DNA of 64,000 bases from Brachyspira aalborgi (GCF_008016455.1 NZ_SAXU01000001.1:2396649-2460648), one strand, 5' to 3'; shown: positions 47,318-59,028, counted from the stretch's first letter. Notes: generated from the letters alone by a model not told the origin. Program-made: numbers and translations.

Positions 47318-47884
47318 CTACTTTATAATATCAAAAAAATCATCGGGATAGCCATACATATCGATTTTTCCGTTTTCGTCAATATCGATTTCCACATAAG
47401 TTCCGTTAATTATCTCTTCGTTTTTATATCTATCGGTTAGAAAATCCATAACTTGATTATCAGAACCGAACAAATGATTATTTATATTTCGTCTCTCTTC
47501 GATATATCGCCCAGAGATTAGCAAATCCGCGTAATCAAAAATTTCAGTTTTTCCGCTCGATATAATTTCCTCTTTTTCGTATCCTGTGTAAAGTATTATT
47601 CCAATATCAAGTTTTTTTATAAGTTTCATTAATTCCAATAATTCGTCAAGTTGTTCTAAAGGTTCGCCTCCAAGTATCGTAACGCATTTTATATTATTCT
47701 TTTCAATCGACTCTTTTATTTGAATTATTAAATCTTCAGTTTTTATATAAAAGCCGCCTTCAAAATCATGCATCGATTTATTCCAGCAGCCTTTACATTT
47801 CAAACTGCAACCTTGCATCCAAATTGCAAATGAATTTCCGAAACCGTAAATACTCGAATTATTATTAATATGAGCTAAACGCAT
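47318..47884 (-). CDS. Radical SAM activase-like protein (NrdG/4Fe-4S type)
   Basis: 188 residues. The cluster motif is MQGCSLKCKGCWN (Cx3Cx2C) near 28-40; GGEPLEQ near 75-81 is the GGE motif for S-adenosylmethionine binding; the length matches anaerobic-reductase activases. It has no NrdD partner here. It closes a series with the DUF1257-like, DUF2997-like and Ycf46-like genes, a combination I associate with Ycf46 gene neighbourhoods, where such a protein is annotated as a single-cluster radical SAM protein. Its target is unknown. It begins 19 nt after the DUF1257-like gene; no clear ribosome site. Confidence 0.85.
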   Translation of the reverse strand: MRLAHINNNSSIYGFGNSFAIWMQGCSLKCKGCWNKSMHDFEGGFYIKTEDLIIQIKESIEKNNIKCVTILGGEPLEQLDELLELMKLIKKLDIGIILYTGYEKEEIISSGKTEIFDYADLLISGRYIEERRNINNHLFGSDNQVMDFLTDRYKNEEIINGTYVEIDIDENGKIDMYGYPDDFFDIIK

Positions 47885-47903
47885 TTATTTTTATCTTAAT
47901 TTT

Positions 47904-48314
47904 TTATCTAACTTCTCTAACTAAAGTAAGTTGAATTTTATTATCTTTTTTCGTTTCCATAACTCTATAACCTTTAGCTTTAGCTTTTTCCATTATCGCT
48001 TTTTTTTGAGATTCTATATATGCAAGTCTCTCTCTTTCGAGTCTTTCCGCTTCTTCTTTAAGTTTTATCTCATAAACATTATTATAAGATTTTTCAACTT
48101 TTATAAGAAAAGAAGAAATATCGTTATTCCAACTGTCATGGTTTAAAATATATTTTCCGTTTACAAATTTAAAATATGTGTTTCTATATTTATGCAATGA
48201 TGGAATATAAATTTTATCGTTTTTAATTTCGTAATTATATCCGCATTTTTCCAAAGCCTCTAAAAGTATTTCTTGGCTTATAAAAGGCGTTGTGGTTTTT
48301 ACTAAACAACTCAT
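47904..48314 (-). CDS. DUF1257/Ycf35-like protein
   Basis: 136 residues. It starts MSCLVKTTTPFISQEILLEALEKCGY, like DUF1257/Ycf35 proteins whose first residues also describe a small alpha/beta unit. It contains a tyrosine-rich strand pair (YFKFVNGKYILNHDSWN), and ends with a helix and KAKGYRVMETKKDNKIQLTL, the typical 'AK-x-G-Y-x(2)-E-x(n)-LTLVR' close. Ycf35 is a conserved plastid and cyanobacterial protein of unknown function found next to DUF2997 and Ycf46 genes. GAGGAG ribosome site, partly within the palindromic spacer at 48326-48345. Confidence 0.75.
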   Translation of the reverse strand: MSCLVKTTTPFISQEILLEALEKCGYNYEIKNDKIYIPSLHKYRNTYFKFVNGKYILNHDSWNNDISSFLIKVEKSYNNVYEIKLKEEAERLERERLAYIESQKKAIMEKAKAKGYRVMETKKDNKIQLTLVREVR

Positions 48315-48325
48315 TTTTTCTCCTC

Positions 48326-48345
48326 GCCACAGGCGTGCCTATGGC
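48326..48345. repeat. GC-rich inverted repeat in a gene spacer
   Basis: GCCA-C-AGGC-GT-GCCT-A-TGGC: 8 of 9 positions pair. Its last 12 bases (CGTGCCTATGGC) occur again at 54512-54523, in another spacer of the same island, within CATAG-TCGTGC-CTATG. Both copies sit between a stop codon and a ribosome site. Confidence 0.7.
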
Positions 48346-48545
48346 TATTTTTGAATATTAATATTTTTTTGACTAACATTAACTTTTTGATAATACTCGT
48401 CAGTTTTCTTAACTTCTTTTATATCGGCAAGCTCGTCTAAAATCTCCTCGACTTCCGACAAACAAGCCTCGCCTTTGATTCCGTCAGTTTTCAAATCTAA
48501 ACTTCCGTCTTCGTTAATTGTAATATTTATTCTTTGCTCTTTCAT
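48345..48545 (-). CDS. DUF2997-like small protein
   Basis: 66 residues. MKEQRINITINEDGSLDLKTDGIKGEACLSEVEEIL matches the DUF2997 pattern: short beta hairpin with (V/I)-x-(V/I)-x(2)-DG-x(4)-V/T-x-G-x-KG-x-x-C, then a helix and an EYYQKV close. DUF2997 proteins are encoded beside DUF1257 and Ycf46 in cyanobacteria and elsewhere. Function unknown; the conserved Cys at residue 28 and the radical SAM neighbour make a modification target thinkable, but that is speculation. AAGGAGAG ribosome site. Confidence 0.75.
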   Translation of the reverse strand: MKEQRINITINEDGSLDLKTDGIKGEACLSEVEEILDELADIKEVKKTDEYYQKVNVSQKNINIQK

Positions 48546-48573
48546 TTTCTCTCCTTTTTATCTTAAAAATAAA

Positions 48574-49473
48574 TTATTCTAAATTTTCAATATCAATTTT
48601 CTTTATCAAATCAATATTTTCGTCAGTTTCCATAATATACGAAAGCGAAGAAACATTATTTTTTTTATTATAAGCGTTTCTATAAATTTTATTAATTTCG
48701 TCTATTATTTCATTAATCTTATTTACATTTTTTATATTTTCTAATTCTTTTAAATCGTTTTCTACTTTTGAAGTTAATTCTTCATAAGTTTTTTTATCCG
48801 AATAATCAAAATCTTTAATAATATCTTTTATTTCGATTATTTTGTCTTCGCACTTTCTTATAATTGGATTTAATTTTTCAATATTTAATTCTTTAACTTT
48901 TTCTTTTTTCATTTTATTTTTAGAATTATTTTTGCTTAAAGAAAGTTCTTCTTTATATTTATCAATAATGAATTTTATAAAATGTTTAGTTAGAATTTCT
49001 TTTGCATTATAAGTAGTATATCCATCATTGCCTCTATACGCACTTTCCACTCTGCTGCCAAATTCTATTTCTTTTATAATATCGTTTACATCAATCTCAT
49101 GTATCTCATGATTATTCATTCTACTTCCAGATTTTGTATATATTTCATCTCTATCTATTATTTTATTATATAAAAGTAATTTCTCTATTTCTCCAAAAAT
49201 ATCAACACTATAAGTAGGAGTGTCGTCAATATATATGCAAGAATTTTCAGCATCTAATTTTATAGAGCTATTCGTAATTTTTTTTCCTCGTTCAAATTCA
49301 TACGCTAATTTAAAATAATAATATTTTTCAGAACCTTTAGAATTAGCAAATTCAAGCGAAATTAATCCTAATTTGATTAAAGTATCGTTAATAACTTTTT
49401 CGTCTATTTTTTCATGCAAATATATTTTTATACATTTAGCGTCCTCGATTTTATTAAAAAATATTGAATTCAT
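48574..49473 (-). CDS. Island protein A: shared N-terminal domain plus coiled coil
   Basis: 299 residues. N-terminal ~170 residues belong to a domain shared with the genes at 52000 and 53748: IYLHEKIDEKVINDTLIKLGLISLEF, a KLDAENSCIYI strand, a DRDEIYTKSGS loop, and LTKHFIKFIIDKYKEELSL. The C-terminal ~120 residues are helices rich in Lys/Glu/Asn. No signal peptide. I do not recognise a named family. It lies 16 nt downstream of the AAA+ gene and 28 nt upstream of the DUF2997-like gene. Confidence 0.7.
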   Translation of the reverse strand: MNSIFFNKIEDAKCIKIYLHEKIDEKVINDTLIKLGLISLEFANSKGSEKYYYFKLAYEFERGKKITNSSIKLDAENSCIYIDDTPTYSVDIFGEIEKLLLYNKIIDRDEIYTKSGSRMNNHEIHEIDVNDIIKEIEFGSRVESAYRGNDGYTTYNAKEILTKHFIKFIIDKYKEELSLSKNNSKNKMKKEKVKELNIEKLNPIIRKCEDKIIEIKDIIKDFDYSDKKTYEELTSKVENDLKELENIKNVNKINEIIDEINKIYRNAYNKKNNVSSLSYIMETDENIDLIKKIDIENLE

Positions 49474-49489
49474 TTTTTATCTCCTTAAT

Positions 49490-51064
49490 TTAATTTTCTT
49501 TTTTATCGTTATCCGTAATAAACGGATTATTAACTTCTTGTTTTAATTGAGGAATTGGTTTATCTTTTGATTTTTCATCCTCTTTCCACGATTTTGAAGA
49601 AGCCAAAACGGTGCGAGCTTTTGCCCATCTTCTCATATCGCTTATATTCTCTTTCATAGTTTTTGAAATAGGATAAGTTTTTTTCATTGCCTCTATTATA
49701 TGCTCCGTTTTAATTTCTTTATTTTCGTCAAAAGCCTTAAATAAAGCTTCTTTTATAGCCTCTTCAATTTCAGCTCCCGAAAAATCTTCGCAGGCGTCAG
49801 CTATTTTTGAAATATCGAAATTATTATAATCTCTTTTTACTCTTTTCAAATGTATTTTTATTATCTCTTCTCTTTCTTCTTTTAATGGCAAATCGACAAA
49901 AAATATTTCATCAACTCTTCCCTTTCTCAAAAGCTCGGGAGGAAGTCCCGATATATTATTTGCCGTAGCGACAACAAATACGGGTTTTTTCTTCTCTTGC
50001 ATCCAAGTTAAAAAAGTCCCTAATACTCTTGAAGTAGTTCCGCCGTCAGTAGAGCCAGAAGACGCCATCCCCGAAAGTCCTTTTTCAATTTCGTCAATCC
50101 AAAGAACAGAAGGCGAAACCGCTTCCGCTATTTTTAAAGCTTTTCTTATATTGCTTTCAGATTCTCCGACAATTCCGCCGAAAATTTTACCCATATCTAA
50201 TTTTATTATAGGAAATTGCCAAGCCGAACCAACCGCTTTCGCGCATAAACTTTTGCCCGTTCCAGGTATTCCAAGTAAAAGTATTCCTCTTGGAGTTTCA
50301 AGTCCGTATTCTTTAGCTTTCTCTTCAAACGCTCGTCCTCTTCTTTTAAGCCAATCTTTCAAAATATCTAATCCGCCGACATCGTCTAAAGTTTCATTAT
50401 GATGATAATATTCTAAATGCCCGCTATTTTTTATTATATTTTCTTTATCTTGTATTATTATTTGAATTTCTTTTTCGGTTAATTGTCCCGTTTGAACTAT
50501 CGCTTTTGAAAACGCCCTTTCCGCTTCCATTATTGTTAAGCCCAAAGCCGATTCAATTATTTTTTCAATATTTCCTTCCGACTTAACGCCGTAATTTTTG
50601 CATACTTTATTAAATATAATAGTTAAATCTTTTCTGCTCGGTAAATCAAGCTCTTCTATATAAACTTCTTTCTCAAGCTCTGAAGGAATTTCTTTTTTAG
50701 TTTGAAGCATTATTAAAGTTCTATCTTTTTTAAAAGAATCGTTTAATGCAATATCTTTTATTTTGCTTATTAAAAAAGGACTATCTCTTAATTGCAAATT
50801 AAATTCTTCCAAAATTAAAATAGAATCTTTTGCTTCATTGCTTTCATACCAATCTAAAATGGCTCGGTTATCTTCCGTATTGTCGATAATGTCGAAATTT
50901 TTACCGTTAAACTTTTTAAGTCCAGAGGAAATATTCCACTTAAACCAATTCCTGTTTAACTCCGAAGCGCTTTTATGAACATCGCCTTCTATTCTTTCGT
51001 TTTCATAGCTTACAATCTGTATAATATTTATTCCAGATTTTATTAAGTTGTTTAAATTAATCAT
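49490..51064 (-). CDS. Ycf46-type AAA+ ATPase
   Basis: 524 residues. An N-terminal non-ATPase region of ~220 residues, then an AAA+ domain highly typical of Ycf46: LDDVGGLDILKDWLKRRGRAF near 226-246, Walker A GIPGTGKS at 265-272, Walker B LWIDEIE at 321-327, sensor ATANN at 366-370, Arg-finger region RKGRVDEIFF at 380-389, and FSGAEIEEAIKEA near 424. The chain ends NNPFITDNDKKEN. Ycf46 is linked to photosynthesis regulation in cyanobacteria, but this host is not photosynthetic. AAA+ proteins of this class remodel protein complexes; here the neighbours are dynamin-like and coiled-coil proteins. AAGGAG ribosome site. Confidence 0.9.
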   Translation of the reverse strand: MINLNNLIKSGINIIQIVSYENERIEGDVHKSASELNRNWFKWNISSGLKKFNGKNFDIIDNTEDNRAILDWYESNEAKDSILILEEFNLQLRDSPFLISKIKDIALNDSFKKDRTLIMLQTKKEIPSELEKEVYIEELDLPSRKDLTIIFNKVCKNYGVKSEGNIEKIIESALGLTIMEAERAFSKAIVQTGQLTEKEIQIIIQDKENIIKNSGHLEYYHHNETLDDVGGLDILKDWLKRRGRAFEEKAKEYGLETPRGILLLGIPGTGKSLCAKAVGSAWQFPIIKLDMGKIFGGIVGESESNIRKALKIAEAVSPSVLWIDEIEKGLSGMASSGSTDGGTTSRVLGTFLTWMQEKKKPVFVVATANNISGLPPELLRKGRVDEIFFVDLPLKEEREEIIKIHLKRVKRDYNNFDISKIADACEDFSGAEIEEAIKEALFKAFDENKEIKTEHIIEAMKKTYPISKTMKENISDMRRWAKARTVLASSKSWKEDEKSKDKPIPQLKQEVNNPFITDNDKKEN

Positions 51065-51096
51065 TTTTTTCTCCTTTTTTTTAATTTAAAATTTTA

Positions 51097-51130
51097 TTTT
51101 TAATTTTTAATTTTTAATTTTTAATTTTTT
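51097..51130. repeat. Low-complexity TTTTTAA tandem run
   Basis: About four copies of TTTTTAA/AATTTTT between the genes at 51143 and 51064. Similar AT filler is found in the spacers at 52610-52690 and 57240-57290 of the island. Confidence 0.6.
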
Positions 51131-51142
51131 ATAATTTTAATT

Positions 51143-51910
51143 TTATTCTTCCAAATCTTCATTTTGATTAACTATAAAATCATAATCAATATAAGGATTA
51201 TCTTTTAATTTTTCTTGAATCTCTTTACTAAACTTATTTGTAATCTCTCTCGATTCAGGCTCTATAATATCGGCAATATAAATTTTGCTCGGCTCATCTT
51301 CGTAAGAATATGTTAATTTTACCGTATAACCGTTTTCTTTTAATTTGAAATAGCCCGAAACTTCGGCAATTTTTATATATTCTTCAAAATATGGCTTCAA
51401 ATCTGTAGGAATATTAAAAGCGTAAACCGATTGATATTCTCCTTTTTCAATATAAGGTTTAATCTCTTCAGGAATATCAAGATTTGAAAAATCTACTCCG
51501 CTTGGAATATCTAAAAATTCCGTTTCAATATTATAATCTAAAGAAAAACATTTAATTTCAGTTTCAAGCCTAATAATCGCTACTTCATAACTCGGCATAA
51601 AATTTTCTTCATTCATTTTTGAAGTAAATTCTTTAATCGCTTTATCTTGCTTTTTTAAAATTTCCTCTACTTCTTCGGGTTCAATATCTTCTTTATTTAG
51701 TATTGAAGTAAGTTCGTTAATAATTTTTATCTGTTTATTAAATCCTTCCGTAAGAAATTCGGGAATAATGTCGGCAAACTCGGAAAATTTATTTATAGCC
51801 GAAAATTTTTTATTCATATCTTTTGCGATATTTTTGTTTAATTTATTATCTTCGTTTAATAATTCCAATTTTTCAATTTCGTTTTCTTCAGAATTATATT
51901 CTTCTTGCAT
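51143..51910 (-). CDS. Acidic hypothetical protein of the island
   Basis: 255 residues, very acidic, no signal or membrane segment. The N-terminal half is helical (MQEEYNSEENEIEKLELLNEDN; IIPEFLTEGFNKQIKIINEL). The C-terminal half is beta-rich (YQSVYAFNIPTDLKPYFEEYI; GYTVKLTYSYEDEPSKIYIADI). I do not recognise a family. It sits between the C-type domain gene and the AAA+ gene, which suggests a part in the same complex, perhaps as an adaptor. Confidence 0.65.
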   Translation of the reverse strand: MQEEYNSEENEIEKLELLNEDNKLNKNIAKDMNKKFSAINKFSEFADIIPEFLTEGFNKQIKIINELTSILNKEDIEPEEVEEILKKQDKAIKEFTSKMNEENFMPSYEVAIIRLETEIKCFSLDYNIETEFLDIPSGVDFSNLDIPEEIKPYIEKGEYQSVYAFNIPTDLKPYFEEYIKIAEVSGYFKLKENGYTVKLTYSYEDEPSKIYIADIIEPESREITNKFSKEIQEKLKDNPYIDYDFIVNQNEDLEE

Positions 51911-51999
51911 TTTTTAACCTCGTTTTATTAATTAATTTTAATTATAAAACCGCTTTCAAAATCGAAAATTGATTAATCAAGCGGTTTTATTTTTTAATT

Positions 52000-52596
52000 T
52001 TATTCTCCATTCGTAATAAACGGATTAGTAGTTATATTTTTATTATCTTCGTTATTTTCATTTGCAGAATTATCTTCAGACGAAATATTTTCTTCTTTGT
52101 ATTTATCAATAACATATTTTATAAAATGTTTGATAATAAATAAATTATACGGTTCGGTTTTTTCTTTTTCTTCGATTTTTTCGATAATATCGTCCGTATT
52201 TGCCGCATATTTTTCGAGATTATTTTTATACTCTTCAGATTTGTCATATACTTCGTCAAGTATTTTTTCTTTAAAAAGTATTTTTTTCATGCCTGAAATA
52301 ATATTTTCGTTATAACCATAAATACAGATACTTGACTTTTCAGCGTCTAATTTTACATGGCTTCCAAGAACAAAATCTTTCATTCCAGGTTTATTAGGAT
52401 TACTAGCATACAATGAAAATTTATAATATATTTCAGATTTTTCCGAATTTTTAATTTCAATAGAAATTAATCCTACTTTTATTAAAATATCTCCAAAAAC
52501 TTTTTCGTCTATTTTATCTTTTAAATAAATTTCTTTATCTTTCCTATTTATTTCTGGTAATTTAGACGCTATTTCATTTAAAAAACTTCCAAACAT
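52000..52596 (-). CDS. Island protein C: shared N-terminal domain, NPFIT tail
   Basis: 198 residues. It carries the same domain as the genes at 48574 and 53748 (EIYLKDKIDEKVFGDILIKVGLISIEI; KLDAEKSSICIYGY; IIKHFIKYVIDKYKEE). It ends NITTNPFITNGE, which resembles the AAA+ ATPase end NNPFITDNDKKEN. AAGGAG ribosome site. The 153-nt spacer downstream (52597-52749 region on the upstream side of the zinc-ribbon stop) includes a 14-codon frame after a strong ribosome site that copies the start of the AAA+ gene (MIN-L), probably a leftover of duplication. Confidence 0.7.
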   Translation of the reverse strand: MFGSFLNEIASKLPEINRKDKEIYLKDKIDEKVFGDILIKVGLISIEIKNSEKSEIYYKFSLYASNPNKPGMKDFVLGSHVKLDAEKSSICIYGYNENIISGMKKILFKEKILDEVYDKSEEYKNNLEKYAANTDDIIEKIEEKEKTEPYNLFIIKHFIKYVIDKYKEENISSEDNSANENNEDNKNITTNPFITNGE

Positions 52597-52749
52597 AATT
52601 TTATCTCCTTTTATTTTTAATTTTTTAATTTTAAATTTTTTGTTTTTTAATATATTTATTTAATTTTAATTACTATTAATTTTAAAATTTATGGCGGAAT
52701 AGCGGATATATTAATAAATATTAAATTAATCATTTTCTCTCCTTTTTTC

Positions 52750-52950
52750 TTACAAATTATTTTTATTTATTATTTTATTTATAGCGGAAGATTTAATATC
52801 TCGGCTTCCGCAACTTGGACATTTAAGTCGAATATTTCCCAATTTTTTTATATTAAAGAATTCCAATAACAGATTTACTTTTATAGAAGAGTTAAAAGTT
52901 TTTCCGCAAGAATTACATTTATAAAAATATGGCGGTTTATTTGGCAACAT
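52750..52950 (-). CDS. Small zinc-ribbon protein
   Basis: 66 residues with two Cys pairs: CNSCGKTFNSS near 12-22 and CPSCGSRDIKSS near 44-55, with about 30 residues between, a classic zinc ribbon. The same C-SCG ... LKCPKCGS pair is the N-terminal part of the island protein at 54535. It could bind a partner protein or nucleic acid. AAGGAG ribosome site. It follows the tail-anchored gene by 9 nt. Confidence 0.7.
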   Translation of the reverse strand: MLPNKPPYFYKCNSCGKTFNSSIKVNLLLEFFNIKKLGNIRLKCPSCGSRDIKSSAINKIINKNNL

Positions 52951-52959
52951 AAATACTCC

Positions 52960-53553
52960 TTATATAATTTTTAAATAATTTAATAATATTATTAATAAAA
53001 AGCTCGCAATAGGCAAAGATATGCAGAGAAAAAATAATTTTTTATTTGCATTTTCAAGTTTATTTATTTTCGCCGTAAATTCAAAATCAATATTTTTAAT
53101 TTTTTTAGAAAGCTTTATTATATTATTATTTAATTTATTTTTTTCTTCGTTAATATCGTTATAAAGTTTTTCAATTTTTAAGTTTAAATTTTCAAATTCT
53201 TTATTGATATTGCCGTTATTTAAATTTATTTCGTTTTTAATATTTTTAGTTTCGTTATTAATATTATTTATTTCGGCGCGGATAAAATTATTTATTTTTT
53301 TCGTTTCTTCGTTTAATATTTTATTTATATTCTCAATTCTTTTATTAGTTTCAGAATATAATTCTTTATAATTATTAAAATTTTCATTGAATTCGTTAAA
53401 AACTTTCCAAAAATTATCCGACTTATCAATCGCTTCTTGCATTTTGTGAATTTTATCCGCATCGTCTCGCACGGAGTCGATATAAGAAAGCTTTTTTTGA
53501 AAATCATTCATATTTTTTAGAAGTTCTTCAACTTTTTTTAAAAGATTTTCCAT
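52960..53553 (-). CDS. Tail-anchored coiled-coil protein
   Basis: 197 residues: almost continuous Lys/Glu/Asn-rich coiled coil (VEELLKNMNDFQKKLSYIDSV, then KNIKNEINLNNGNINKEFENL and so on to about 165), followed by one membrane helix at the very C-terminus (LFFLCISLPIASFLLIILLNYL). So it would be anchored with the coiled coil in the cytoplasm. No family recognised. It could tether the dynamin/coiled-coil complex to the membrane. Confidence 0.7.
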   Translation of the reverse strand: MENLLKKVEELLKNMNDFQKKLSYIDSVRDDADKIHKMQEAIDKSDNFWKVFNEFNENFNNYKELYSETNKRIENINKILNEETKKINNFIRAEINNINNETKNIKNEINLNNGNINKEFENLNLKIEKLYNDINEEKNKLNNNIIKLSKKIKNIDFEFTAKINKLENANKKLFFLCISLPIASFLLIILLNYLKII

Positions 53554-53615
53554 TTATAAATTTAATCTCCCAATAAAAAATAATATTTTGTAAATTACAA
53601 TAAAAATATTTTTAA

Positions 53616-53735
53616 TTAATCTAAAGCTATTTTGATTAATCTAATTATAGCAATTACTATTGATATTATTGTAAAAATAGGATTTGCTAAAAAACCTAAT
53701 ACTAGTCCCGTTCCTATTATTCCCGCTGTAATCAT
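53616..53735 (-). CDS. Small hydrophobic membrane peptide
   Basis: 39 residues, MITAGIIGTGLVLGFLANPIFTIISIVIAIIRLIKIALD by reading the minus strand in two blocks (MITAGIIGTGLVLGFLANPI and FTIISIVIAIIRLIKIALD). AAGGAG lies 8 nt before ATG 53735, and the frame fills the spacer between the neighbours. It is nearly all hydrophobic with two charged sites near the end and could form one or two membrane helices. Encoded in the middle of the island. I recognise no family. Coding is inferred from ribosome site, frame and spacing. Confidence 0.65.
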   Translation of the reverse strand: MITAGIIGTGLVLGFLANPIFTIISIVIAIIRLIKIALD

Positions 53736-53747
53736 ATTTTTAACTCC

Positions 53748-54491
53748 TTATTTTATTTTAAGAATATCCAAAAGAGAGTTTATAACTTCTTCTTTTTTGT
53801 CGTATTCTTTTCTTTTCGCTTCAATCTCTCTTTCGTTTAATTTAGCGTTTTCTTCAATCTCTTTTTTGATAATATAAATTTTATTTTCAAGTTCTTTAAT
53901 TTGTTTTTTATATTTTCCTTCAAAATCGTTAAGAACCGAATTTAAATTTTTCAATTGTTCCATTGAATTATCTTGCAACTTTTGAGATAAAGAAAGTTCC
54001 TTTTTATATTTATCCATAACGAATTTTATAAAATGTTTAATTAAAGCTAATTCTCTAGAATTATCGTCCCATTCCTCGCCTTGATATTCTATTTTCTTTA
54101 TAATATCGCTTATATCTATATCATGTATTTTATTTCTACTTCTAATATCTCCCGATTTCGTATATACTTCGTCTCTATCTATTACTTTATAATCTAAAAG
54201 CAAATTTACGATATGATAACCGTCAATAAAATCGAAATAATCCCAAATCATATTATATGATATAAATAATAAATTTTCAGACGCTATAATAATAGACTTT
54301 TCATAAATATTTAAGTTGCTATAAGATATGCGTCCATCTTCATTAAAAATTGGTTTAAATTGTTTTAAGTAAAATAATTTATCCGTCCATTTAGAATTAG
54401 TTAATTCAAGCGAAGTTAATCCTAATTTTATTAAAGTGTCGCTTAATATTTTTTTATCTATTTTTTCTGATAAATGAATTATTATATCCAT
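53748..54491 (-). CDS. Island protein B: shared N-domain plus shared coiled-coil module
   Basis: 247 residues combining two island modules. N-terminal ~165 residues: the domain shared with 48574 and 52000 (IIHLSEKIDKKILSDTLIKLGLTSLEL; DRDEVYTKSGD; LIKHFIKFVMDKYKKELSL). Then LKNLNSVLNDFEGKYKKQ and a C-terminal coiled coil IKKEIEEN-(x)-EREIEAKRKEYDKKEEVIN shared with the three genes upstream. Being a natural fusion of the two families, it links them functionally. GAGG ribosome site. The spacer before it (54503-54527) has the CGTGCCTATGGC repeat. Confidence 0.7.
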   Translation of the reverse strand: MDIIIHLSEKIDKKILSDTLIKLGLTSLELTNSKWTDKLFYLKQFKPIFNEDGRISYSNLNIYEKSIIIASENLLFISYNMIWDYFDFIDGYHIVNLLLDYKVIDRDEVYTKSGDIRSRNKIHDIDISDIIKKIEYQGEEWDDNSRELALIKHFIKFVMDKYKKELSLSQKLQDNSMEQLKNLNSVLNDFEGKYKKQIKELENKIYIIKKEIEENAKLNEREIEAKRKEYDKKEEVINSLLDILKIK

Positions 54492-54511
54492 TCTTACCTC
54501 TTCGTCATAGT

Positions 54512-54523
54512 CGTGCCTATGGC
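54512..54523. repeat. Second copy of the CGTGCCTATGGC spacer element
   Basis: Identical over 12 bases to 48334-48345 and also inside overlapping small inverted repeats (CATAG-TCGTGC-CTATG), just upstream of a ribosome site. Confidence 0.6.
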
Positions 54524-54534
54524 ATAGTTTTAAT

Positions 54535-55464
54535 TTAATTCTTTATAGTTTCCAAAAGATTATTAATAATCTCTTCTTTTTTGTCGTATTCTTTTCTTTT
54601 TTCCTCAATTTCGCTTTCGTTTAAATTAGCGTTCTCTTCAATCTCTTTTTTAATATTTTTTATGCTATCTTCATTATTTTTCATTACTCTATTAATGTTT
54701 CTTTGTATAAATTCTATCGTATTGTTTGTAATAAAATCTAAATCGTCAAAATATTTATCAAAAGAATTTTTAATTATTTCGTCAATATAAGAATTCATTT
54801 CAACTAATCTTTTTTCGGACGCTTTTATTTCCAAAATCGAAAGACATTTATAATCTGATAAAGATATTTTATTATTTATATCGTCATAAAAAGAATTTTT
54901 AAAATCTTTTATCAATTTATCGCAATTTGCTTTTAAAGAATATGAATTAAATTCTTCTAATTGATTATTTTCTTTAATAAAACTTTCAATAGAATTAAAA
55001 ACTTCTTCTAACTTTGATATAAATAAATTTTCAAGTTCTTTAAGTCTTGGTTTTTTTGATTCTTTAATATCGTTTAGAATAGAATTTAAATTTTGCAATT
55101 GAGATATTGAATTATCTTCGCTATCATAATGTTTCGTTTCTCTAATTTCATTATCGGTTTTTTCATTCTTTTTGAAAATATCTTTAATAACTTCCGCTAC
55201 TTTTTCTGCCGCATAAAAAGGCATCTCTCTTACTTTATCGCTTCCACATTTTGGACATTTTAACGGCTCTTCTTTTTCAAAAATTATACCTATGTTTTCA
55301 TGCCAATCTGTTTGGTCTGGAGGGTCTTTACAAATAGGAGGTTTACTTGTCTTTTCAAATACTTCAATTAACTTTGCAAACTTACCTTTTCTTTCTGATA
55401 CAAATATTTCTCCGCATGATTTACATTTATAATAGTATCCAACAAATTTAACAAAATCAATCAT
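54535..55464 (-). CDS. Zinc-ribbon plus coiled-coil island protein
   Basis: 309 residues. N-terminal zinc ribbon: YYKCKSCGEIFVSERKG near 13 and PLKCPKCGSDKVREMP near 71-86. Middle: YDSEDNSISQLQNLNSIL then long helices including LSDYKCLSILEIKASEKR and DDLDFITNNTIEFIQRNINR, nearly matched in the next gene. End: IKKEIEEN-(x)-ESEIEEKRKEYDKKEEIINNLLE, the module common to four island proteins. Soluble by sequence; metal binding likely. AGGAG ribosome site. Confidence 0.7.
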   Translation of the reverse strand: MIDFVKFVGYYYKCKSCGEIFVSERKGKFAKLIEVFEKTSKPPICKDPPDQTDWHENIGIIFEKEEPLKCPKCGSDKVREMPFYAAEKVAEVIKDIFKKNEKTDNEIRETKHYDSEDNSISQLQNLNSILNDIKESKKPRLKELENLFISKLEEVFNSIESFIKENNQLEEFNSYSLKANCDKLIKDFKNSFYDDINNKISLSDYKCLSILEIKASEKRLVEMNSYIDEIIKNSFDKYFDDLDFITNNTIEFIQRNINRVMKNNEDSIKNIKKEIEENANLNESEIEEKRKEYDKKEEIINNLLETIKN

Positions 55465-55475
55465 TTTTTATCTCC

Positions 55476-56354
55476 TCATTTTATAGTTTCCAAAAGAGAG
55501 TCAATAATTTTTTCTTTTCTGTCGTATTCTTTTCTTTTTTCCTCAATTTCGCTTTCGCTTAATTGCATATTTGCTTCAATTTCTTTTTTAATAATATCGA
55601 CTCGAATTAATTGCTCTCTTTTTATTCTGTCAATACTTCTATGTATGAATTCTATTGTATTATTTGTAATAAAATCCAAATCCTCAAAGTATTTATTTAA
55701 AGCTTCTTTAATAATTTCGTCCAAATAATTTTTCATTTGATTTGAACGCTCTTCGGAATTTTGAATTTCCAATATTGTAAAACATTTATAATCGGATAAC
55801 GCTATTCTTCCGTTTATATTGTCTGAAAAAGAATTTTTAAAATCATTTAGCAATTTATCAAAGTTATGCCTTAAAGCCAATATGTCTATATTAACGCCTT
55901 GCGAACAAATATTTTCTTTAATAAAACTTTCGATTTTATTAAAAGAATCTTCCAAAGTCGCGCTAAAAGTCTCTTCCACTTCTTTTATATCTTCTTTCAA
56001 TTCTTTTCTCATATTATTAAGAATAGAATTTAAATTCTGTAATTGAGATATTGTAGCGTTTTCGGGATTGTATGCTTCCATATTTCTAATTTCATCGTTG
56101 GATTGCTCGCCAATATTTTTAGAAATTTTTTCCATAAAGCCCAAAATTTTTTTAACGCTATCCGCTGGCGGTTCTAAAATCGGCGGAATTTTAGTCGCAA
56201 TCGTTGATAAAAACTGTCCCGCCGAACTTATCGCCGTAGTCGCCGCTGTCCCTATTGCCGTAGCCGCGCTTCCAACTGCAGCTCCTACGGTTGAAACCGC
56301 GGAAGTTAAAGCTCCTATCGCCGCGGCTCCCAAACCTATTAAAAAACCAAACAT
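55476..56354 (-). CDS. Membrane-inserting coiled-coil island protein
   Basis: 292 residues. The first ~45 residues are a Gly/Ala/Thr-rich hydrophobic stretch (MFGFLIGLGAAAIGALTSAV, then STVGAAVGSAATAIGTAATT) without a cleavage site, like a membrane-inserting or pore-like segment. Then YNPENATISQLQNLNSILN, helices with LSDYKCFTILEIQNSEER and EDLDFITNNTIEFIHRSI, and the common C-terminal coiled coil (EIEEKRKEYDRKEKIIDSLLE). So it has the same body as 54535 with a different head. AAAGGAG ribosome site. Confidence 0.7.
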   Translation of the reverse strand: MFGFLIGLGAAAIGALTSAVSTVGAAVGSAATAIGTAATTAISSAGQFLSTIATKIPPILEPPADSVKKILGFMEKISKNIGEQSNDEIRNMEAYNPENATISQLQNLNSILNNMRKELKEDIKEVEETFSATLEDSFNKIESFIKENICSQGVNIDILALRHNFDKLLNDFKNSFSDNINGRIALSDYKCFTILEIQNSEERSNQMKNYLDEIIKEALNKYFEDLDFITNNTIEFIHRSIDRIKREQLIRVDIIKKEIEANMQLSESEIEEKRKEYDRKEKIIDSLLETIK

Positions 56355-56365
56355 AATTTACTCCT

Positions 56366-57226
56366 TTATTTGATAGTTTCCAAGAAATTATTAATAATCT
56401 CTTCTTTTCTATCGTATTCTTTTCTTTTTGCTTCAATTTCGCTTTCGCTTAATTTCATGTTTTCCTCAATTTCTTTTTTAATATTTTCAATGCTTTCTTC
56501 ATTATTTTTCTTTATTCGGTTAATGTTTATTTTAATAGCATTTAAAGAATTTGTAGAAATCTCGTCAATACTGTCGCAGAAATTATTTAAAGCGTTATCG
56601 ACTAATTCGTCTAAATAATTTTTTATTTTGTCTTTTCGCTCTTTTTTATTTTCAAGTTTCAATATTTCGGCGCATTTTGTATCGCCAATAGCTATATGGT
56701 CTAATATTTCGCTTGAAAAGGTTCTTTTAAAATTTGTTATCGTATCGCTAAATTTAGTTTCAATTTCCCCGACATTTATTCCCAAACCTTCAAATTTTTT
56801 ATTAATTTCTTTTTCAAGCTCTTCGCTTTGAATAAACGGATTTATCGAAGGGTCATAATTGCTCTTCTGATTAAGTTCCGTTTCTATCATATCGACTATT
56901 TTATTTTTAATCTCTTTCGATAACTCTATAGATTTTTCTTCATATTGTTTGAGTTTAGTTTTATACTCTTCTTTTATATCGTTTAATATTTTAGTAATCG
57001 CTTTCGTCTCTTCAATAGTAGCGGTTTCGGGGTCGTAAGCTCCAGCTTTAGATACTTTTTTTGCGCTTGCTGTTGAAGTTTGCCCGAGCGAAGTTCTCCC
57101 ACCATTGAAAAAATCTACTACATCCTCAATCTTATCTTCTACAAAATCAATGACATTTGTAGCTTTTTCAACAACCCATTCAGCTGCATCACTTATTTTT
57201 TCTGCTATCCAACTAAAAAGTCCCAT
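56366..57226 (-). CDS. Amphipathic-head coiled-coil island protein
   Basis: 286 residues. It starts MGLFSWIAEKISDAAEWVVE, an amphipathic, likely membrane-surface helix, followed by KATNVIDFVEDKIEDVVDFF. Then YDPETATIEETKAITKIL, a SNYDPSINPFIQ stretch (again NPFI), helices with IGDTKCAEILKLENKKER, and the common C-terminal module (EIEAKRKEYDRKEEIINNFLE). First coiled-coil gene after the dynamin gene. AAGGAG ribosome site, 53 nt after the dynamin stop. Confidence 0.7.
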   Translation of the reverse strand: MGLFSWIAEKISDAAEWVVEKATNVIDFVEDKIEDVVDFFNGGRTSLGQTSTASAKKVSKAGAYDPETATIEETKAITKILNDIKEEYKTKLKQYEEKSIELSKEIKNKIVDMIETELNQKSNYDPSINPFIQSEELEKEINKKFEGLGINVGEIETKFSDTITNFKRTFSSEILDHIAIGDTKCAEILKLENKKERKDKIKNYLDELVDNALNNFCDSIDEISTNSLNAIKININRIKKNNEESIENIKKEIEENMKLSESEIEAKRKEYDRKEEIINNFLETIK

Positions 57227-57279
57227 AATTTTTCTCCTTATAGTTTTAAATTTTTTTTAATCTTTAATTTTTTTACTTT

Positions 57280-58674
57280 TTATTTTTTTATAGCTTCTTT
57301 CAATTTTTTATTTTGATTAAGCCATTCTGTTTTTATATTTTCAAAAGCTTCGTTCAAACCGTTCATAGCCTTTTCGATTTCCTCTATTTCCTTATTTTTC
57401 ATAAGTTTAAACTCTTCCTGCTGTTTTCTATCCATATCTAAAGAGGCTCGGCTTTGAGAATTTGAATCTTTTATAGTTTTTGCTTTATTACTTATATTCG
57501 TTATCATATTTAAATATCTTCTTTCCAAATCTTTTTTAACCTCTTCCTCTCCTTTTGAAATTATATCTCTATGCATTATAGAATTAACTTTTTTGATATT
57601 TGTTAAATCTTTAATATTTTCAGAGTTTTTAATTATAAGGTTGCTATCTTGCCAATCTTTTAATCCTATGCCATAACTTTTTGCCAATTTATATATTGCA
57701 ATCTTTCCGTCTTCATCGCATTCTTTACCGTTTTCAAGTTCTATAACTTTAGAATATACATAAGAAGAAACGCCGATTATATTATTTTTAAGTAAATCTT
57801 CATTTTTATAATTATCTCTTAAATATTTTTTCCATTCTTCAATTTGTTTTTCCCAAGCTTCTTTAGGATTATTTTTATTGTCTATTTGCGTTCCTAATAT
57901 CATAACTTTGTAAAAATCGTCTCCGATATTTTCAAAAACTTTTGTTATGGTTATATATTCATCGTTTCTTAAACTTGAAGAATCTACGCAAACTATAATG
58001 GCATTCGCTCTTTTAATATAATCTCTCGTTATTTTTGAGCGATAATCAACAACATCGTCTAATCCCGGGGTATCGACTATCGTTACATTTTTATGCATAT
58101 TATCGTTATTCAAATAAACTTTAAGCTCTTTAACGAAATAATGAATTTTACTATTTTTTGAAGTGTATTCTTTTACTTTATTTTTTAGTTCTTCAATATT
58201 TGAAACTTCTTCAATTTTATCGGAAGCTCCTATATAATCATTTTTAATATTTTCCGCTCCCGAACTTTCAAATTCGTCTCTAAAAATTTTTGTTTTTGTT
58301 TTTTCTTCAGATTTTTTAACGCTTTCCCATAATTCGTCCCATTCCGTTTTATTATAAAATTTAACTTCAAGTTTATTTTTTGTAGAATATCTAAATTTTG
58401 TAAGCGATGCGGTTTCGGGAGTCACATCCGTTGAGGCTATATTTTCCTCAAACAATGCGTTAATAAAAGTGGATTTTCCTGCTTTAATCGTGCCGACTAT
58501 TGCAATTTGTAAATCGGGTTCGTCTATAAAAGCTTTTTGTTTTTTTATATCTTTTCTCTCGTTATCGAATTTAACATTAAATTCTTTTTCTACCGTTTCA
58601 ATAGATTTCTCTATTTCTTCGATTTTTCTTTTTTGTCTTTCGACTTCGTTTTGTAATTTTTCTAATGCGCTCAT
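57280..58674 (-). CDS. Dynamin-like GTPase
   Basis: 464 residues. Short coiled coil (1-45), then a GTPase domain: G1 GTIKAGKST at 61-69, G2 TPETAS at 85-90, G3 DTPG at 201-204, G4 TQID at 262-265. The last ~90 residues are charged helices (RASLDMDRKQQEEFKLMKNKEIEEIEK). The AGKST/DTPG spacing and TPETA switch place it with bacterial dynamin-like proteins (LeoA or Era/dynamin-like group) that act on membranes. No obvious membrane paddle. First gene of the island transcript; an AAGGAG ribosome site precedes ATG 58674. The (TTTGC)5 tract lies about 180 nt upstream. Confidence 0.85.
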   Translation of the reverse strand: MSALEKLQNEVERQKRKIEEIEKSIETVEKEFNVKFDNERKDIKKQKAFIDEPDLQIAIVGTIKAGKSTFINALFEENIASTDVTPETASLTKFRYSTKNKLEVKFYNKTEWDELWESVKKSEEKTKTKIFRDEFESSGAENIKNDYIGASDKIEEVSNIEELKNKVKEYTSKNSKIHYFVKELKVYLNNDNMHKNVTIVDTPGLDDVVDYRSKITRDYIKRANAIIVCVDSSSLRNDEYITITKVFENIGDDFYKVMILGTQIDNKNNPKEAWEKQIEEWKKYLRDNYKNEDLLKNNIIGVSSYVYSKVIELENGKECDEDGKIAIYKLAKSYGIGLKDWQDSNLIIKNSENIKDLTNIKKVNSIMHRDIISKGEEEVKKDLERRYLNMITNISNKAKTIKDSNSQSRASLDMDRKQQEEFKLMKNKEIEEIEKAMNGLNEAFENIKTEWLNQNKKLKEAIKK

Positions 58675-59028
58675 TTTAAGCTCCTTTTTAAAATTTTTAT
58701 TGAATTATTTAAAGATAAATTAATATCCGTATTTGAAATATATTTATAAGGCAAAGACTCTTTATTTTTATTAGCAGATAATTTTTTATAAAATGAAATA
58801 TAATATTTGTTATGATTAAGTAAACATAAATTTGGAAAAAGTTTAAAGGTTTGCTTTGCTTTGCTTTGCTTTGCTTAACAAAGTTATAGTGTTTTTAAGT
58901 ATCATAAAAAAATCTCATCGCCTATTATTTTTGGCAATTTATTATCGAATAGTTTAACATAGATTATAGATTATGTCAATCGTCTTAAAATAAAAATTTT
59001 GTTTTTTAATTATTATTTCAAATAAAAA
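58675..59028. other. Gene-free stretch upstream of the island
   Basis: No gene. It should hold the island promoter, but I could not fix it with confidence. It contains the TTTGC tandem repeat and otherwise AT-rich sequence. Confidence 0.5.
58850..58876. repeat. Tandem repeat (TTTGC)x5
   Basis: Five exact copies of TTTGC plus TT, about 180 nt upstream of the dynamin gene start. Non-coding, with a length that can change by slippage. Confidence 0.9.

Follow-up and report, generated by a model that had tools for sequence, protein, structure and literature searches.

Does the run of fifteen genes that leads, in Brachyspira aalborgi, from a dynamin-like GTPase to a radical SAM protein form one system? 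The window (the whole 64,000-nucleotide stretch that was analysed) is part of a 2.5-Mb Brachyspira genome. The first-pass annotation had read the genes as a single membrane-associated system, with one direction, short spacers and separate AGGAG sites. Fifteen ATG-start ORFs, all on the minus strand, were found to fill positions 47318-58674, among them the short ORF at 53617-53735 for a 39-aa membrane peptide. Gaps of 9-153 bp separate them. A GGAG-type site precedes 12 genes; weaker or more remote sites lie ahead of NC247, cc197 or p255, and the stretch upstream of the radical SAM gene has none.

Between genes 52000 and 51910 the run is interrupted by a hairpin (51946..51988, minus strand; -17.4 kcal/mol, z -4.88). 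None of 200 shuffled sequences folded equally well. Because its U-tract sits within the stem, the hairpin is described as terminator-like and not as a proven terminator. Given its position between the two genes, the island is probably read as two transcripts. The island is made of two portable modules, A (58674-52000) and B (51910-47318), which meet at this hairpin. The single fifteen-gene system had been made to depend on the genes occurring together in other genomes. The full set was not kept together elsewhere: the modules were carried apart in the other genomes examined, the neighbourhood in locus L073 described below aside, and the complete set is a local combination. In the other genomes whose neighbourhood could be read, the conserved DUF3793-flavodoxin pair had no such island beside it, so the island was acquired or assembled in this lineage. 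No description of the module combination was found in the literature. A promoter-like site (TTGACA-17-TAAACT with TG; 58951..58979, minus strand), a consensus match only, lies 5' of the GTPase gene. The long 5' region of this gene also holds a short AAGCA tandem repeat (window 58876-58851) of possibly variable length.

All module A genes are given here in order of transcription, on the minus strand. The GTPase (57280..58674, 464 aa) was identified with Pfam Dynamin_N (1.2e-20) and by a profile match to the Campylobacter DLP 5owv (2.6e-27). It has the G1 (GTIKAGKS), G3 (DTPGLD) and G4 (TQID) motifs of a dynamin-type G domain. The chain past G4 is about 200 aa and looks too short for a full dynamin stalk. 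Three C-domain proteins with different heads follow: C286 (56366..57226), with an amphipathic N-terminal head, assigned by the C-domain family HMM, AlphaFold and structural neighbours; C292 (55476..56354), with a Gly/Ala-rich hydrophobic head (HMM; hydropathy 1.90 at residue 2) and a weak PADLOC LeoBC match (9.9e-5, residues 7-132); and ZnC309 (54535..55464), with a zinc-ribbon-like head (Pfam and C-domain HMM), the zinc-ribbon Pfam matches in the island being below cut-off. NC247 (53748..54491) is a module-linking fusion, by family HMMs, of an N-domain (1.7e-69 over residues 2-183) and a short C-domain (pieces at 1.7e-9 and 7.8e-15 over residues 150-244). After it come the membrane peptide (53617..53735; hydropathy 2.57, AAGGAG site), the tail-anchored coiled-coil protein cc197 (52960..53553; TM-like segment at 173), a small zinc-ribbon-like protein (52750..52950; Zn_ribbon_8 2.1e-5, below the Pfam cut-off) and the N-domain protein N198 (52000..52596; N-domain HMM), which ends in NPFITNGE. 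Relatives of cc197 were found again in module A of other Brachyspira (loci of G022 and G006). A 14-codon ORF (MINLIFINISAIPP; window 52733-52689) with a good AGGAG site lies in the 153-bp gap ahead of N198 and may be a leader peptide or a remnant. In the whole island, the N-domain occurs in three proteins and the C-domain in four, one of these a fusion. The family HMM E-values for these common domains range from 1e-9 to 1e-93, which rules out low GC (26%) and coiled coils as the sole source of the sharing.

Of what is new here, the conserved GTPase/C-domain set of module A is the strongest part; it is widespread and apparently undescribed. The C-domain is helical, about 190 aa long and common to the module A partners behind differing heads. 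A scan with the GTPase alignment, using one genome per species, gave 23 good GTPase loci. A C-domain protein was found near the GTPase in 20 of them (spirochaetes, Negativicutes and Clostridia), mostly in the next one or two genes. In L078 and L084, which lack one, the contigs end soon after the GTPase; L081 is the sole real exception. Heads are amphipathic or Gly/Ala-rich in Brachyspira, to which the window adds a zinc ribbon and an N-domain; in Spirochaetaceae MAGs the head is a DUF1232 domain or a zinc ribbon. Cys-rich heads, for example MGGCCIGDCCVANCGFCC, occur in Negativicutes, Clostridia and one Treponema. Thirteen loci with such heads keep a seven-gene order: HerA-like ATPase, small membrane protein (present in 12), 150-aa protein, zinc-ribbon GTPase, LpxD-like hexapeptide protein, Cys-rich C-domain protein and radical SAM/SPASM maturase. 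Examples are L077:5554-14298 and also L073-L076, L079, L080, L082, L083, L085-L087 and L089; no description of this HerA/GTPase/hexapeptide/Cys-rich C-domain/radical SAM/SPASM locus was found in the literature. The joining of the GTPase to membrane-active partners, proposed earlier, is supported as a conserved unit. Within Brachyspira, module A was present in 3 of 26 genomes. A viral origin of the GTPase or the N-domain was rejected, as no relatives of either were found in viral contigs.

What the C-domain might do was approached through its predicted fold. The AlphaFold model of C286 (27 sequences) is all-helical, with pLDDT 74.6 and pTM 0.61. Of its top 25 VIA-align neighbours, 18 are dynamin-superfamily proteins matched over their stalks and 7 are designed bundles. 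Z values were 12.1 for Cj-DLP2 (residues 291-611), 11.8 for MxB, 10.9 for LeoA (286-571), 10.1 for BDLP (370-682) and 9.1 for IniA (304-591), all below 13, under which similarity between helical bundles may reflect a common arrangement. Foldseek with the same model returned nothing at E below 0.01, and in profile searches the C-domain showed no relation to any stalk at the level of sequence, nor any to the other Brachyspira dynamins. Compared with a long four-helix stalk, the C-domain thus has stalks as its best natural neighbours, at Z 9-12 and without sequence support. A pore-forming toxin was also considered and rejected, the ClyA-type Foldseek matches being as weak as those of any helical bundle. 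The predicted fold resembles dynamin stalks most, and a dynamin with its stalk in trans is possible on this model; the hypothesis arises from the stalk-like neighbours of C286 and the short GTPase taken together. In its extended form, the stalk and the membrane-binding tip of a split dynamin would be separate, interchangeable proteins (with membrane helices, zinc ribbons or, in Firmicutes, Cys-rich heads probably modified by radical SAM enzymes) driven by one short GTPase, with the AAA+ cassette optional. We consider this form unlikely.

Module B, also on the minus strand, begins with p255 (51143..51910), a 255-aa protein that matched no Pfam family above cut-off. The AAA+ ATPase (49490..51064; AAA 2.6e-30) has an AAA core and AAA_lid_3 behind a long N-terminal domain and matches phrog_8638 (3.7e-142) near full length. 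It is assigned to the Ycf46 type on this architecture and the phrog_8638 match. Next come N299 (48574..49473), assigned by family HMMs as an N-domain fused to a C-terminal T-domain, and a DUF2997 protein (48345..48545; PF11211 5.2e-9, 36.3 bits against a cut-off of 24.1). The predicted structure of N299 (pLDDT 64.6) gave no fold match in a structure search. The small protein at 47904..48314 had been named DUF1257/Ycf35-like, a name that was not confirmed: a search with PF06868 (DUF1257) gave no match at E<=1; the protein is conserved in the DUF1257 position, with 79-83% identity in four other Brachyspira and 32% in L063. A reading of the N-domain as a diverged DUF1257 found no support either (hhalign probability 0.2%, from shallow alignments). 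The last gene (47318..47884) encodes an NrdG-like radical SAM protein with CxxxCxxC (Radical_SAM 1.6e-10, Fer4_12 3e-30). It did not qualify as an NrdG activase: it scored 99.9 bits against TIGR02491, under the cut-off of 126.1, and no RVxG-type motif of a glycyl-radical partner was found in the island. Pfam confirmed the dynamin, AAA+, DUF2997 and radical SAM assignments of the first-pass annotation (Dynamin_N, AAA, DUF2997, Fer4_12 and Radical_SAM), and its AAA+/DUF2997/radical SAM neighbourhood recurs as a cassette.

The module B AAA+ was present in 7 of 26 Brachyspira genomes, most of which have no module A; the relatives in six further Brachyspira genomes share 72-87% identity. The T-domain is a conserved C-terminus, ending INNLYxxAYYKKxNKSSLAxIMDDDE, behind unrelated N-termini. 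Within the genus, T-domain proteins adjoin the AAA+ or, where the cassette is split (G016 and G018), DUF2997-d1257-radical SAM. At the distant AAA+ locus L063, none of the T-, N- and C-domains was found. The AAA+ C-terminus (NNPFITDNDKKEN) carries an NPF motif in 6 of the 7 Brachyspira copies examined and in the L063 copy; the motif was not seen in the other AAA+ subfamilies examined. NPFIT is common to this C-terminus and that of N198, and our guess is that the NPF tail is a docking element. In other spirochaetes, the AAA+, DUF2997 and radical SAM genes were found inside contractile-injection loci, so the cassette is portable. At L054-L060, likewise from other spirochaetes, DUF2997, often with a Ycf46-type AAA+ and a radical SAM gene, lies in or near loci for contractile injection systems. 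In L063:3557-12491 the cassette comes directly after a Mokosh-like helicase gene and the genes of a 356-aa and a 578-aa protein. Another Ycf46-type cassette (AAA+, a protein of about 570 aa and small proteins; L073:622-5300, L065:3265-7218 and L142:9509-14214) is common to a Lachnospiraceae MAG, the Streptococcus satellite phage Javan368 and a Brachyspira. In other Brachyspira, AAA+ copies that are more distant (L139-L141; about 40% identity) adjoin paralogues of one family (FNIHDIL...GILEKWL).

Are the two modules then connected? Two fusions join them, NC247 (N+C) and N299 (N+T), and in L073, the Lachnospiraceae MAG, a Ycf46-type AAA+ cassette shares the strand of the GTPase locus and lies immediately 5' of it. 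A functional link is possible because of these fusions and this neighbourhood. The N-domain was also found in other settings. In B. catarrhinii, an N-domain protein adjoins the AAA+ and a T-domain protein. A second N-domain gene of the present genome (L032:7523-14014), about 1 Mb away, lies beside three dynamin-like GTPases, and its product has a tail, SSEDNSANENNEDNKNIT[TS]NPFITNGE, near-identical to that of N198. Each of the three Brachyspira genomes that have module A carries module B as well (p about 0.013, with phylogeny ignored).

The best explanation as a whole, in which we have slightly less than even confidence, is a membrane-acting GTPase module side by side with an AAA+ cassette that handles T-domain proteins, joined by the N-domain fusions. 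That module A acts on membranes we infer from its heads and from the kinship of its GTPase with dynamins, and to this extent the earlier idea of a membrane complex is partly supported, for module A and not for fifteen genes together. The short GTPase would leave membrane contact to helical partners, each composed of one common C-domain and its own head. The C-domains would join the GTPase and provide its stalk in trans, and GTP hydrolysis would cluster or remodel membrane, with the heads choosing the sites. The purpose may be to repair or guard membranes, perhaps under phage attack. The portable cassette of module B (AAA+, DUF2997 and radical SAM) would handle T-domain-tagged proteins, the AAA+ acting on T- or N-domain proteins and the radical SAM enzyme on a putative substrate, and the N-domain fusions would bring it to module A.

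Alternatively, unrelated modules may have landed side by side, N-domain sharing being a by-product of local gene duplication. The separation of A and B in all other genomes examined, the lack of the island at this site elsewhere and the hairpin at the boundary are consistent with this, but the N-domain forms fusions with the C-domain and with the T-domain, has an AAA+ and a T-domain protein as neighbours in B. catarrhinii and lies beside dynamin-like GTPases at the second site; we regard mere adjacency as rather unlikely. We have the same degree of doubt about a stack of defence cassettes, in which the GTPase module would, in the manner of B. subtilis DynA or Leo-type dynamins, guard membranes, with the AAA+ cassette as a separate defence or anti-defence unit. 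An anti-phage function is plausible in itself: DynA has a known anti-phage action and delays phage lysis (PMC8844932), AAA+ relatives occur in phages and one satellite phage, and the island is patchily distributed and inserted in one lineage. Defence genes, chosen by eye and without a base rate, adjoin or lie in some related loci (CRISPR III-D by L073, a type IIG enzyme by L074, a type I methyltransferase in L079, a HEC-06-like gene in L030 and the Mokosh-like helicase by the AAA+ cassette in L063), but no recognised defence gene lies in the window flanks bordering the island and no PADLOC system matched the GTPase/C-domain set as a whole. Recruited cargo often looks like a variable N-terminus with a constant C-terminal tag. 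The C- and T-domain proteins resemble it in this and could belong to a particle, as structural subunits or as cargo, with the AAA+ cassette as assembly factor; at L054 and loci like it, AAA+, DUF2997 and radical SAM genes adjoin CIS_tube and gp19 tube genes. Such an assembly or export machine is improbable, the island having no sheath, tube, baseplate or secretion gene.

If the preferred reading is true, the architecture of a dynamin can be divided between a motor and adaptors that are exchangeable, in a gene set of gut spirochaetes, Negativicutes and Clostridia, and a first biochemical handle is given on the targets of DUF2997/Ycf46/radical SAM cassettes. The stalk idea aside, the conserved and, in our searches, undescribed GTPase/C-domain/radical SAM/HerA locus is a concrete new target. 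Module A shares GTPase-centred multi-gene sets, zinc ribbons and membrane parts with the DO-GTPase/GAP1 conflict systems (Kaur et al., 2020, PMC7159879), a paper in which 'dynamin' appears nowhere; the DO-GTPase2 Pfam match was only 3.9e-4, below cut-off. The models scoring best for the Firmicutes radical SAM gene beside the Cys-rich C-domain proteins were the RiPP maturases CefB (Cys-every-fifth) and TIGR04463. The gene is well below their equivalog cut-offs, its putative substrate is the head of a helical protein of about 250 aa and not a short peptide, and the window has no radical SAM/SPASM maturase of this type. With the cyanobacterial cluster DUF2997-ycf35(DUF1257)-ferredoxin and Ycf46, module B shares DUF2997 and the Ycf46-type AAA+, but it has a radical SAM protein for the ferredoxin, an unconfirmed DUF1257 and added T-domain proteins (PMC4284462). 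Leo/Eleos, recognized by LeoA with a LeoBC pair, was not found, as the window GTPase had no PADLOC match, and unlike bacterial DLP pairs or Leo the island has neither LeoBC nor a second DLP gene. With Cj-DLP1/2, LeoABC, BDLP, IniA and DynA, module A has in common the dynamin G domain, gene sets of several partners and membrane-active parts; it differs from them in its short GTPase and in partners that have no G domain and combine a common helical domain with interchangeable heads.
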